Below, piece after piece: positions 34,798-64,000 of a DNA stretch of 64,000 nucleotides. The notes beneath the pieces were generated by a model that saw nothing but the letters and a program-made list of their open reading frames with translations, was not told the DNA's origin and did not search any database. Each line of letters opens with the position of its first letter. The first letter of the stretch is position 1. A program made the position numbers and the translations under genes. The DNA is taken from contig MKWN01000038.1 of assembly GCA_001899775.1 (NCBI GenBank), forward strand, positions 62,001 through 126,000. The letters run 5' to 3'. The stretch is from Thiobacillus sp. 65-29 (GTDB lineage: Bacteria; Pseudomonadota; Gammaproteobacteria; Burkholderiales; Thiobacillaceae).

Positions 34798-35475
34798 ATG
34801 GCAACAGCGAAGAAACCCGCCGCCAAACCGGCGGCCAAGAAGGCGGCAGCCAAGCCGGCTGCGAAGAAGGCCGCCCCGGCCAAGAAGGCAGCGCCGGCAA
34901 AGAAGGCCGCCGCCAAACCCGCAGTGAAGAAGGCCACCGCCAAGCCGGCTGCGAAGAAGGCCGCCCCGGCCAAGAAGCCCGCAGTGAAGAAAGCCGCCCC
35001 CGCCAAGAAGGCCGCTCCGGCCAAAAAGGCAGCAGCGGTCAAGAAGCCCGCAGTGAAGAAGGCCGCCGCCAAACCGGCTGTGAAGAAGGCCGCTCCGGCG
35101 AAGAAACCCGCCGTCAAGAAAGCCGCCCCCGCCAAGAAGGCCGCTCCGGCCAAAAAGGCAGCAGCGGCCAAGAAGCCCGCAGTGAAGAAGGCCGCCGCCA
35201 AGCCGGCTGTGAAGAAGGCCGCTCCGGCGAAGAAACCCGCTGCAAAGAAAGCGGCCCCCGCCAAGAAAGCCGCTCCGGCGAAAAAGCCCGCTGCAAAGAA
35301 AGCGGCTCCCGCGAAGAAGCCCGCTGCCAAGCCGGCTGCGAAGAAGGCCGCTCCGGCGAAGAAACCCGCCGCGAAGAAGGCCGCTCCCGCCAAGCCTGCA
35401 CCGGCCACGGCGCCTGCCGCGGCGCCTGCTGCCCCCGCACCGGCGGTACCGGTCATCAAGCCCTTCGGGCTCTAA
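34798..35475 (+). CDS. histone H1-like Lys/Ala/Pro-rich DNA-binding protein
   Basis: About 220 aa made of repeating KKAAPAKKPA(V/A)KKAA units. Confidence 0.85.
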   Translation: MATAKKPAAKPAAKKAAAKPAAKKAAPAKKAAPAKKAAAKPAVKKATAKPAAKKAAPAKKPAVKKAAPAKKAAPAKKAAAVKKPAVKKAAAKPAVKKAAPAKKPAVKKAAPAKKAAPAKKAAAAKKPAVKKAAAKPAVKKAAPAKKPAAKKAAPAKKAAPAKKPAAKKAAPAKKPAAKPAAKKAAPAKKPAAKKAAPAKPAPATAPAAAPAAPAPAVPVIKPFGL

Positions 35476-57782: not shown

Positions 57783-58835
57783 ATGAAACTCAACCCCAAA
57801 GCACTGACCGGCAGCCTGGTCCTCGCGGGCCTCATGTTTGCCGGCACCGCCCAGGCCGGCGCTGTTATCACCAACGGCACCGTCACGATGGGGGTCAATG
57901 ATCTCGGCCACCTCAACACCCCCTGGCCGGCGGGCTCGTCCGACCCATTGGGTATCGGGTACGTCGGTCTGCGCTACAACGCGACCGGTGCGGCGTCGAC
58001 CGAACCCGGGTGCCTGTGCGAAGGCTGGGGCGTGGCGCTCGTTTCCAGCGGCACCAAGGGTTATGCCAACGAATCAAGCGGCACCGCGGGGCTCAGCCTC
58101 GTGAGCTTCACCTCCACCGCGAGCACGGCCGTGTCGGTCGTCAATGTCGGGACGGCCACCGCCGGCCCCGCCCTGCAGGTGACCCACAACTACCAGCCGA
58201 TTGCCGGCACGCCCAACCTGTACCAGGTGGCTGTCACCATCAAGAACCTGACCGGCAGCGAAATCGGAGCGGGTGACCTGCGCTACCGTCGCGTGATGGA
58301 CTGGGACATCTATCCCACCCCGTTCAGCGAATATGTGACGATCCAGGGCGTGCCCGCCGCGCTCGGCATCGCCAACGGTTCGAACGTCTATCGCACCGAC
58401 AACAACGGCTTCAACTCCGCCGACCCGACCACTTTCTCGAGCTATGGCCAGTTGAACACCAACTTCACCGACAACGGTCCTGACGACCACGGTGCTCTCT
58501 TCGACTTCGAGTTCGCCGCGCTGGCGGCGGGGGGCGAATTCACCTTCTACACGTATTACGGTGCCGCCGAGAGCGAAGCCGCCGCCGACATGGCACGCCG
58601 GATGGTGGATGGCGATGCTTCCGACGTCGACATCGGTCTCTACTCGTACGGGCAACCCAGCACCACGAACGGCCCCACCCTCGGCGAGCCGAATACCTTC
58701 ATCTTCGGCTTCGGCGTGTCGGGCGGCATTTTCGTCGATCCGGATCCCAACCCCACCCCGGAACCCGGCTCGCTGGCGCTCCTGGGCCTCGGCTTCGCCG
58801 GCCTGGCCGCCATGCGCCGCCGCAAGTCGAAATAA
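57783..58835 (+). CDS. PEP-CTERM sorting domain protein
   Basis: Signal peptide; C-terminus PTPEPGSLALLGLGFAGLAAMRRRKSK. Confidence 0.92.
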   Translation: MKLNPKALTGSLVLAGLMFAGTAQAGAVITNGTVTMGVNDLGHLNTPWPAGSSDPLGIGYVGLRYNATGAASTEPGCLCEGWGVALVSSGTKGYANESSGTAGLSLVSFTSTASTAVSVVNVGTATAGPALQVTHNYQPIAGTPNLYQVAVTIKNLTGSEIGAGDLRYRRVMDWDIYPTPFSEYVTIQGVPAALGIANGSNVYRTDNNGFNSADPTTFSSYGQLNTNFTDNGPDDHGALFDFEFAALAAGGEFTFYTYYGAAESEAAADMARRMVDGDASDVDIGLYSYGQPSTTNGPTLGEPNTFIFGFGVSGGIFVDPDPNPTPEPGSLALLGLGFAGLAAMRRRKSK

Positions 58836-60516: not shown

Positions 60517-61326
60517 ATGTCCACATTCAAGCAAATCACACGCACCCTCGGGCTGGCGTCCCTTTCGGCGCTCGCCTTCTCGGGTGCTGCACAAGCGGGC
60601 GCCTTTGACAGCGGCATCCCAGGTTCTTGGTCGGGCACCGGCAATTACGGTGCTCTCGGTGCCAACGGCGTGGTCACCGCTTCACCCGAAGGCGGCAACT
60701 ACGGCTGGATCGCCAGCAACACCGGCATCACCGGCCTGGGCATCGACGTCAACGGCGACAGCATCGCCGACGGCACCGACGGCACCCGCCTGCGCTCCGG
60801 GGTCTTCTCGGCCGCCGCGGGCGACGACCTCGAATTCTATTTCAACTACGTCACATCCGACGGCTCGGGCTATGCCGACTTTGCCTGGGTCCGCCTGCTC
60901 GACAGCAGCCTTACCGAAGTCGCATTGCTGTTCACCGCACGCACCACGCCCGGCGGCGACACCGTGCCCGGTTTCAGCATGCCCCCCCTCGGTGCCGGAG
61001 TGACCCTGGTTCCTGCCACGACCCCGATCATCCCCGGCGGCCCATCCTGGTCCCCGCTGGGTGGCTACTCGGGATCCTGCTACAGCACGGGCTGCGGCTA
61101 CACGGACTGGATCGGGATGACTTATGAAATCGCCGCTGCGGGCGACTACGTGCTGGAGTTCGGCGTGGTCGACTGGTCCGACCAGATTTACGATTCGGGC
61201 CTCGCCTTCGACGGCATCCTGGTCGGCGGCAAGCCGATCGATCCGGTGCCGGAGCCGGCCTCGCTCGCGCTGCTGGGCATCGGTCTCGCGGGCCTCGCCG
61301 CCGCGCGCCGCCGCAAGACTGCTTGA
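60517..61326 (+). CDS. PEP-CTERM sorting domain protein
   Basis: Signal peptide; C-terminus PVPEPASLALLGIGLAGLAAARRRKTA. Confidence 0.92.
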   Translation: MSTFKQITRTLGLASLSALAFSGAAQAGAFDSGIPGSWSGTGNYGALGANGVVTASPEGGNYGWIASNTGITGLGIDVNGDSIADGTDGTRLRSGVFSAAAGDDLEFYFNYVTSDGSGYADFAWVRLLDSSLTEVALLFTARTTPGGDTVPGFSMPPLGAGVTLVPATTPIIPGGPSWSPLGGYSGSCYSTGCGYTDWIGMTYEIAAAGDYVLEFGVVDWSDQIYDSGLAFDGILVGGKPIDPVPEPASLALLGIGLAGLAAARRRKTA

Positions 61327-61393: not shown

Positions 61394-63373
61394 TCAGCGC
61401 AAATAGCCTTCGTGCTCCAGCTTCAGCAATACCTGCTGCACCGCCTCCTCGATGCCAAGATCCGTGGTGTCGATCGCCAGTTCCGGGTTTTCCGGCACCT
61501 CATACGGATCGGACACGCCGGTGAATTCCGGAATCAGCCCGGCGCGCGCCTTCGCGTACAGGCCTTTGCGGTCGCGCGCCTCGCAGGTGGCGATGGGGGT
61601 GGCGACGTGGATTTCGACGAAGCCGCCGACCGCCTCGATCATCGCGCGCACGTCGCGGCGCGTCTGCCGGTACGGGGCGATCGGCGCGCAGATGGCGATG
61701 CCGCGGTTCTTGGTGATTTCCGAGGCGACGAAACCGATGCGGCGCACGTTGACGTCGCGGTGCGCCTTGGAAAAGCCGAGTTCGGATGACAGGTGGCGCC
61801 GCACGATGTCGCCATCGAGCAGCGTCACCGAGCGCCCGCCCATTTCCATCAGCCGCGCCGCCAGCGCGCGTGCGATCGTGGACTTGCCGGCGCCGGACAG
61901 TCCGGTGAAGAACACGGTGAAACCCTGCTGCTCGCGCGGCGGACTCTGCCGGTGCAACTCGGCAAGCACTTCGGGAAAGCTGTACCACTCGGGAATCTTC
62001 AGACCGGCCTGCATGCGGCGGCGGAATTCCTCGCCGGGCAGGGTAAGGATGCGCGAACCCGCCGGCACCTCGCCCTGGGCGACGTATTCGGCGCGGTCCT
62101 CGACGTAGACCATGCGCGGGTAGGGAATCAGCGTAACACCGATTTTTTCGGCCTGCGCGTTGACGGGCAGCTCGGTACGCTGCTGCGCCAGATCCTCGCC
62201 ACGCCGGAAATCGCCATCGGGCTGGTGTTCGCCGCCGACGATGAGCAGGCTGCAACCGTGGTTGCGCGCGACGATGGCGCGCAGCAGCAGCTCGCGTGCT
62301 GTGCAGCCGCGCGGCGGCGCCGGCAGCACGGCGAGCTGGGTGGTGGCGGACGGGAAGCGGTCACGCAACGCGATGAAGCTGCGCACGAGACCAAAATAGG
62401 CCGGCGCATCGGTGAGATCTCCACCGGCCTGCGGATGCAGCAGCAGGTTGGCCTCGTGCTCGATCGCGCTTTTCAGGCAGAAGGCGTACTGCGCGCGGTG
62501 CATGGGCTGGCGCGCCTGCCAGGCGAGCACACGGCGCCAGCCGCGCTTGGCGAAGAGGGCACGCAGTTCGGCGGGCGTGGCGCGCAGGCCGGCGAAATCC
62601 GGATGCGGCGGCAGCGCGACGCCCTCGACCGCGCCGCCCAGATGCCATGCGCCCGCATCGTTCCACACATCACTCACGGCGAGCACCGCGGTGGCGGACG
62701 GGAAGCGGTCACGCAACGCGATGAAGCTGCGCACGAGACCAAAATAGGCCGGCGCATCGGTGAGATCTCCACCGGCCTGCGGATGCAGCAGCAGGTTGGC
62801 CTCGTGCTCGATCGCGCTTTTCAGGCAGAAGGCGTACTGCGCGCGGTGCATGGGCTGGCGCGCCTGCCAGGCGAGCACACGGCGCCAGCCGCGCTTGGCG
62901 AAGAGGGCACGCAGTTCGGCGGGCGTGGCGCGCAGGCCGGCGAAATCCGGATGCGGCGGCAGCGCGACGCCCTCGACCGCGCCGCCCAGATGCCATGCGC
63001 CCGCATCGTTCCACACATCACTCACGGCGAGCACCGCGAGCATGAAACCCTCGCCGTCGCGCAGCGCGACCCGGTCGCCCGGTTTCAGCTCGCCGGCGGC
63101 TTTCTGCCGGCTGACCAGCGTCACCGGCTGCGGCCAGAACGTACCGTCGTCGAGTGCCATGTCGGTCTCGACGCGACGGCACTGCGCGCGCGTCATGAAG
63201 TCGGCGAGCGGCGAATACGCGCCGCTCATGAGCATTTCCAGCTCGCACTGCGCCTGCCAGTCGAGATCGAGCGACGGCAGGCTGAACGCTTCCTGCTTCA
63301 GTGCGTCGGCGCGTGCGGGGTCGATGAGGTTGACGAGGGCGCCGCCGTAGGGCGCGATGAGTTGATGGTCCAT
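61394..63373 (-). CDS. two-domain APS kinase with sulfurylase-like N-terminal domain containing an internal duplication
   Basis: C-terminal FFTGLSGAGKSTIARALAARL, LLDGDIVRRHLSSELGFSKAHRDVNVRRIGFVA (APS kinase); N-terminal ATP-sulfurylase-like sequence. Confidence 0.92.
   Translation of the reverse strand: MDHQLIAPYGGALVNLIDPARADALKQEAFSLPSLDLDWQAQCELEMLMSGAYSPLADFMTRAQCRRVETDMALDDGTFWPQPVTLVSRQKAAGELKPGDRVALRDGEGFMLAVLAVSDVWNDAGAWHLGGAVEGVALPPHPDFAGLRATPAELRALFAKRGWRRVLAWQARQPMHRAQYAFCLKSAIEHEANLLLHPQAGGDLTDAPAYFGLVRSFIALRDRFPSATAVLAVSDVWNDAGAWHLGGAVEGVALPPHPDFAGLRATPAELRALFAKRGWRRVLAWQARQPMHRAQYAFCLKSAIEHEANLLLHPQAGGDLTDAPAYFGLVRSFIALRDRFPSATTQLAVLPAPPRGCTARELLLRAIVARNHGCSLLIVGGEHQPDGDFRRGEDLAQQRTELPVNAQAEKIGVTLIPYPRMVYVEDRAEYVAQGEVPAGSRILTLPGEEFRRRMQAGLKIPEWYSFPEVLAELHRQSPPREQQGFTVFFTGLSGAGKSTIARALAARLMEMGGRSVTLLDGDIVRRHLSSELGFSKAHRDVNVRRIGFVASEITKNRGIAICAPIAPYRQTRRDVRAMIEAVGGFVEIHVATPIATCEARDRKGLYAKARAGLIPEFTGVSDPYEVPENPELAIDTTDLGIEEAVQQVLLKLEHEGYLR
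62343..63038. repeat. Exact 348-bp tandem duplication (62343-62690 and 62691-63038)
   Basis: Nucleotide-identical on reading; identical antisense ORFs at 62361-62666 and 62709-63014 are offset by exactly 348. Confidence 0.95.
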
Positions 63374-63388: not shown

Positions 63389-64000
63389 TCAGGCAAAGAT
63401 CTGGTAGAACAAAGCAAGAAACCGGCCAAATTCGGCGTCGGGAAGGTGGTTGATGCCCGCCGCCGCCTTGCGTCCGCCGCCGGTGTCGAACTGGCTGCAC
63501 AGCACGTCCGCACCGGAGCGCGTCGCCAGCGGCGCGCGCACGCTGACGACGTAGCCGCCGCCGGGCTTGGCGGTGAGGACCGCGTGGGCCTGCTGAGGGG
63601 ATTCAACCGCCAGGCGGTTGCCGAACACGCCGGAAATCCGCCGCGCCCATTTTTCCGCCGGCAGCACGAAGACACGCCCGCCGGGGCGATTTTCCGCCGC
63701 GGCCAGTGCGACGGCGCGCGCCATGTCCTCCATATAACCTGACTGCAGGGTGCGATACGCTGGTGCCTCGGCGATGAAGGCGAACGGGTCGGCATAGGGC
63801 CGCACCTGACGATACAACTCGGCCGGATCGAAGAACAGGTCGTCGAGGGTCTCGCCGTAGCCGTTGTAGTTGAGGCATTCGCCGAGCGACTGCAAGGCCG
63901 CGAGTTGCGCGTCCGACAAGCCCAGCGGTGCGGCGGCAGCACGCGCGGAATCCGCCAGGTTGTCGCCGAACGCCGCCGCGACCGCCCACGGCAGGTGCCG
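63389..64000 (-). CDS. DHH-family phosphoesterase-like protein, N-terminus beyond window
   Basis: Frame stays open to window end; C-terminal GGGRKAAAGINHLP resembles DHHA1. Confidence 0.6.
   Translation of the reverse strand, partial: RHLPWAVAAAFGDNLADSARAAAAPLGLSDAQLAALQSLGECLNYNGYGETLDDLFFDPAELYRQVRPYADPFAFIAEAPAYRTLQSGYMEDMARAVALAAAENRPGGRVFVLPAEKWARRISGVFGNRLAVESPQQAHAVLTAKPGGGYVVSVRAPLATRSGADVLCSQFDTGGGRKAAAGINHLPDAEFGRFLALFYQIFA

Follow-up and report, generated by a model that had tools for sequence, protein, structure and literature searches.

An exact, in-frame 348-bp tandem duplication in the two-domain APS kinase gene of Thiobacillus sp. 65-29

The 64,000-nucleotide stretch of Thiobacillus sp. 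65-29 DNA analysed here (the window) carries a two-domain APS kinase gene on the minus strand (61394-63373), identified by Pfam, NCBIfam PRK05537 and PDB 3cr8, whose product is 659 aa long where relatives have 543 aa. The locus raises the question of whether the additional residues, which are encoded by an exact repeat, represent a recent duplication, an assembly fault or a new protein architecture. Positions 62342-62690 are identical to positions 62690-63038 over 349 bases at an offset of 348 bp with 0 mismatches, and TRF recovers the same array with a period of 348, 2.0 copies and a score of 1396; at 349 bases the run is one base longer than its period of 348, which leaves the limits of the unit uncertain by that base. 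The open reading frame continues across both copies, and the unit of 116 codons (residues 113-228) is repeated head to tail and in frame as residues 229-344. Copy 1, the N-terminal copy (residues ~113-228), occupies 62691-63038 on the minus strand and is defined by the exact period-348 run; copy 2 (residues ~229-344) occupies 62343-62690 on the same strand and is defined by this run, by the alignment of relatives and by its placement in the fold by AlphaFold. The new junction falls at 62690/62691, reading CACGGCGAGCACCGCG before the break and GTGGCGGACGGG after it, with an overlap there of only 1 bp. Chance is ruled out for an exact match of 349 bp, and no further occurrence of the full-length unit was found across the 2.9-Mb, 61-contig genome. 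The zero-mismatch run and the TRF array bear out an earlier sequence-only reading of this DNA, which had described an exact in-frame head-to-tail duplication of 348 bp giving 659 aa instead of about 543, the length that the relatives indeed have.

Pfam places PUA_2 at residues 6-122, followed by ATP-sulfurylase (8.6e-64) and APS_kinase at residues 483-635 (7.3e-59), and this order of PUA-like, ATP-sulfurylase-like and APS kinase domains is that of the 3CR8 family. The 659-aa protein is assigned to PRK05537 by NCBIfam, and its best PDB match by both sequence and fold is 3cr8, with which it is colinear except for the extra unit. The APS kinase domain (61469-61927, minus strand; Pfam and alignment) lies outside the duplication, and its P-loop, GLSGAGKST, is intact and its kinase residues are conserved as invariant alignment columns. 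The unit itself consists of the linker plus ~82 of the ~213 sulfurylase-domain residues, counted from the start of that domain; duplication of a whole domain was considered and rejected, as Pfam assigns residues 113-228 to the linker and the opening part of this domain.

Comparison with the closest relatives, as the sequence-only reading had proposed, located the duplication in the source genome only. At least some match to the query was present in 56 of 56 congeners and 117 of 118 family genomes (source genome included), and in those with a complete two-domain gene the ORF match is single-copy. The named relatives place the source genome in Thiobacillus. The duplication was absent from all 109 relative loci read, the sister species included, these loci comprising two overlapping sets of 80 named GTDB records and 29 congener hits. 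Used as a tblastn query, the unit gave one match in 108 of the 109 loci; in the remaining locus (L064) the two pieces are the halves of one copy, and a shared or ancestral duplication was therefore rejected. Of the 80 named records, 79 have a single HRAQ/HRAH-type motif, located 205-211 residues ahead of the P-loop, the exception again being L064, in which the open frame stops short of the motif. Because it is absent from all of these relatives, the duplication is private to the source genome.

The gene of the sister (L033, genome G046) is single-copy, with 94% amino acid identity and ~90% nucleotide identity. About 1.9 kb downstream, the 3′ end of the gene is present a second time in decayed form (76%; L033, 4536-4688 and 6547-6696), with an unrelated 602-aa ORF between the two, and loose 3′ fragments of the gene are also found in genomes G021 and G114; the locus seems to have been duplicated before. 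In congener G049, a short contig (C56; L140, 1-295 and 2138-2816) opens with the last 82 residues of the gene at 100% amino acid and ~90% nucleotide identity, whereas the main copy of that genome is only 82% identical; this may reflect mixed binning or an additional fragment.

Across the unit, 28 of the 116 codons differ between source and sister (22 synonymous, 6 non-synonymous), giving a dN of 0.028 and a dS of 0.33. The dN/dS of the gene is ~0.08-0.11 versus the sister, and on these rates it is under purifying selection. The two copies show zero differences from one another, which sets a 95% upper limit of ~3/28 of the time since the sister split, assuming that both copies diverge independently at the same pace and ignoring gene conversion. 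The absence of inter-copy differences thus places the duplication within the most recent ~10% of the interval since source and sister diverged, or else points to a sequencing or assembly error. Together with the absence of the duplication from relatives, it supports the sequence-only reading in its view of a very recent event or an artefact.

The flanks of the array carry a short homology. The 10-mer CACGGCGAGC recurs in register at the 348-bp spacing of the array (62327, 62675 and 63023), within an imperfect 16-bp homology of which 12 of 16 positions agree, including the perfect CACGGCGAGC and the terminal G. Its first partner is the outer flank CACGGCGAGCTGGGTG (62327-62342, plus strand; flank comparison); on the same strand, CACGGCGAGCACCGCG is found at the junction of copies 1 and 2 (62675-62690; period-348 run and flank comparison) and at the other end of the array (63023-63038; flank comparison). 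CACGGCGAGC stands apart from the junction, as 62690/62691 lies six bases further on and those bases are mostly mismatched. The sequence-only reading had placed the junction near the short homology cacggcgagc, also present at the other end of the unit: the presence of this homology nearby, at both ends and in register, was confirmed, the junction itself lying six bases away and the agreement over 16 bp being 12/16. Among random breakpoint pairs in the window, 224 of 2,000,000 (~1 in 9,000) have an exact in-register run of 10 bp within 16 bp. A homology of this kind speaks for slippage or illegitimate recombination rather than for an error in joining contigs, and the slippage or unequal exchange suggested earlier is consistent with it. 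The 10-mer is missing from the sister at both sites, and the breakpoint homology therefore appears to be recent itself; a conversion tract left by the duplication event is a possible alternative origin. The breakpoint argument supports a physical template switch but falls short of proving one inside the cell, because a library chimera at the same homology would look identical.

The explanation that best accommodates these observations, and that we consider likely, is a real tandem duplication within the gene that arose very recently in a single Thiobacillus lineage. In this event the nascent strand during replication, or an unequal exchange between sister chromosomes, would have realigned 348 bp back on the 16-bp imperfect homology, with the CACGGCGAGC anchor and the matching 3′-terminal base holding the new pairing, after which the 348-bp segment would have been copied a second time. 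The duplication could survive because its length, 348, is divisible by three and the segment lies in a sulfurylase-like domain that would have no catalytic role in the genus. One copy would complete the fold, with the other forming a surplus insert ahead of the untouched APS kinase. The kinase of the 659-aa form presumably still works, and the repeat would be expected to collapse back through recombination. The site contains no N and lies inside a 129,776-bp contig.

A related possibility is that the duplication is real but carried by only some members of the sampled population, as a polymorphism perhaps moving among one, two or more copies. This overlaps with a real, very recent duplication and differs only in the event not being fixed; we hold it as a tentative alternative. 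Exact tandem repeats change copy number through slippage and recombination (PMC12817950), and bacterial tandem duplications are frequent and unstable (PMC12607827), with short duplications of 2.6-3.3 kb able to last for thousands of generations and lost at ~1e-4 per generation (PMC12607827). The assembly, however, holds the two-copy form only, and one genome of the species was found. Exact repeats beyond short-read length are poorly resolved and easily miscounted by short reads (PMC12817950); as the 349-bp exact repeat exceeds the usual short-read length, a copy number of two is provisional even if the duplication is real.

It is rather unlikely, yet deserves consideration, that the repeat is an assembly or library artefact, either an untrimmed 348-bp overlap join or a chimera at the short homology, and that the true gene is single-copy and encodes 543 aa. 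The identity of the copies and the lack of the duplication in every relative would be expected of such an error; the genome is a 61-contig draft that is interrupted by N at one or more other places (22 N in L123), and a homology-driven library chimera is compatible with the breakpoint homology. The segment can also break assemblies: in congener G045, contigs C76 and C77 (L138 and L139) share their first 133 bases as an exact reverse-complement overlap at the contig ends within the same gene, which may reflect a graph branch. An arbitrary join, however, is unlikely to fall at an in-register 10-bp homology at the frequency estimated above and would be in frame in only 1 of 3 cases, and the site is free of N. 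Neither 454 kb of the source genome nor 320 kb from two single-contig congeners contained any further near-exact short tandem duplication; the assembly therefore does not generally produce them, and a genome-wide artefact pattern was rejected. The only other find in the 454 kb was a pair of partly matching stretches spaced by 2,051 bp (L120), and a tandem hit of ~290 bp at periods 50-53 in L104 resembles an N run or low-complexity sequence.

The consequences of a real, recent duplication for the protein depend on the domain in which it lies. The sequence-only reading had expected the duplicated region to hold the active-site motif, but the motif there, QARQPMHRAQ, present in both copies, is degenerate and not a working site. 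The second motif is GGEHQPDG, and both are common to the Thiobacillus relatives read, which carry QARQPMHRAQ with small variants and a GGEHQPDG-like second motif. The alpha- and gammaproteobacterial relatives read have instead QTRNPxHRAH and GRDHAGPG, the pair that marks an active bifunctional enzyme and that the 659-aa protein lacks. The sulfurylase-like domain of T. denitrificans is non-catalytic and a proposed hexamer stabiliser, and the corresponding domain raises kinase activity in the Entamoeba enzyme (PMC13213808). The protein of 3CR8 is reported to be an APS kinase that lacks ATP sulfurylase activity (Gay, Segel and Fisher 2009). Duplication of a functional active site was rejected, since the motif is degenerate across the genus and the closest solved protein is without ATP sulfurylase activity. 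A separate Sat gene on contig C52 has the intact motifs QTRNPMHRSHE and GRDHAGVG, so that, judging from motifs, sulfate activation or the reverse reaction may be independent of the duplicated domain.

AlphaFold was run on the 659-aa chain with 36 relatives, in an alignment that assigns the relatives to copy 2. In the model, copy 2 takes its place in the 3CR8-like sulfurylase fold and copy 1 emerges as an insert of low confidence with pLDDT mostly of 28-60, most blocks outside copy 1 reaching 70-96; its TM-score against 3cr8 is 0.94 by target length. The disorder of copy 1 is partly imposed by the alignment, because this gives copy 1 no homologous rows. The simplest reading of the model is that one copy is used and one is carried as an insert, with the kinase domain untouched.

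An adaptive gain, in which the second copy alters oligomer assembly or kinase regulation through the sulfurylase-like domain, is very improbable: the reading frame is kept, and the roles described for the domain in T. denitrificans and Entamoeba (PMC13213808) would suit such a gain, but the unit is a fragment made up of the linker and first ~82 domain residues, not a folding unit, the extra copy is of low confidence in the AlphaFold model, no relative shares the unit, and the copies bear no sign of divergence or selection between them. That recombination toggles reversibly between 543-aa and 659-aa forms, altering hexamer assembly and tuning PAPS supply in a sulfur oxidiser, is barely credible.

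Among known systems, the hexameric two-domain APS kinase of T. denitrificans (3CR8, Q3SM86) shares the genus, the domain order, QARQPMHRAQ and ~80% amino acid identity, but has one copy of residues 113-228 where the source genome has two. Bifunctional ATP sulfurylase/APS kinases (Aquifex aeolicus 2GKS and the proteobacterial PRK05537-type) have the same architecture and fold, the alpha- and gammaproteobacterial members read differing in the two motifs given above. Intragenic duplications and variable tandem repeats made by slippage (PMC12817950) are likewise exact, head-to-tail and in-frame with short end homology; what sets the source genome apart is that it has one event with two copies, that the unit is 348 bp long and that the host gene is metabolic. 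The locus thus most likely represents an ordinary mutation in a known protein, in a segment without a working active site, and an ordinary, very recent copying slip is favoured over a new kind of enzyme. If real, it captures an in-frame duplication shortly after its origin, and the pseudo-enzyme domain of the host protein may tolerate bulky insertions; an odd protein length such as 659 aa may stem from one recent event or from faulty assembly, not from a new architecture.

The upstream neighbour of the APS kinase gene, on the minus strand at 63389-64000, runs past the window end and also adjoins the gene in the sister. Its full-length counterpart in the sister weakly resembles the DHH phosphoesterase family, scoring 18.6 bits, which is under the cut-off, and removal of the PAPS by-product pAp by this protein is only a guess. 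Two proteins with PEP-CTERM-like C-termini (PEPxSLALLG...RRRK) are encoded near the APS kinase gene at 57783-58835 and 60517-61326. Further away, at 34810-35394, lies a long lysine/alanine-rich array of AAGAAGGCC-type repeats whose units measure 18-129 bp; the array is probably a histone H1-like tail.
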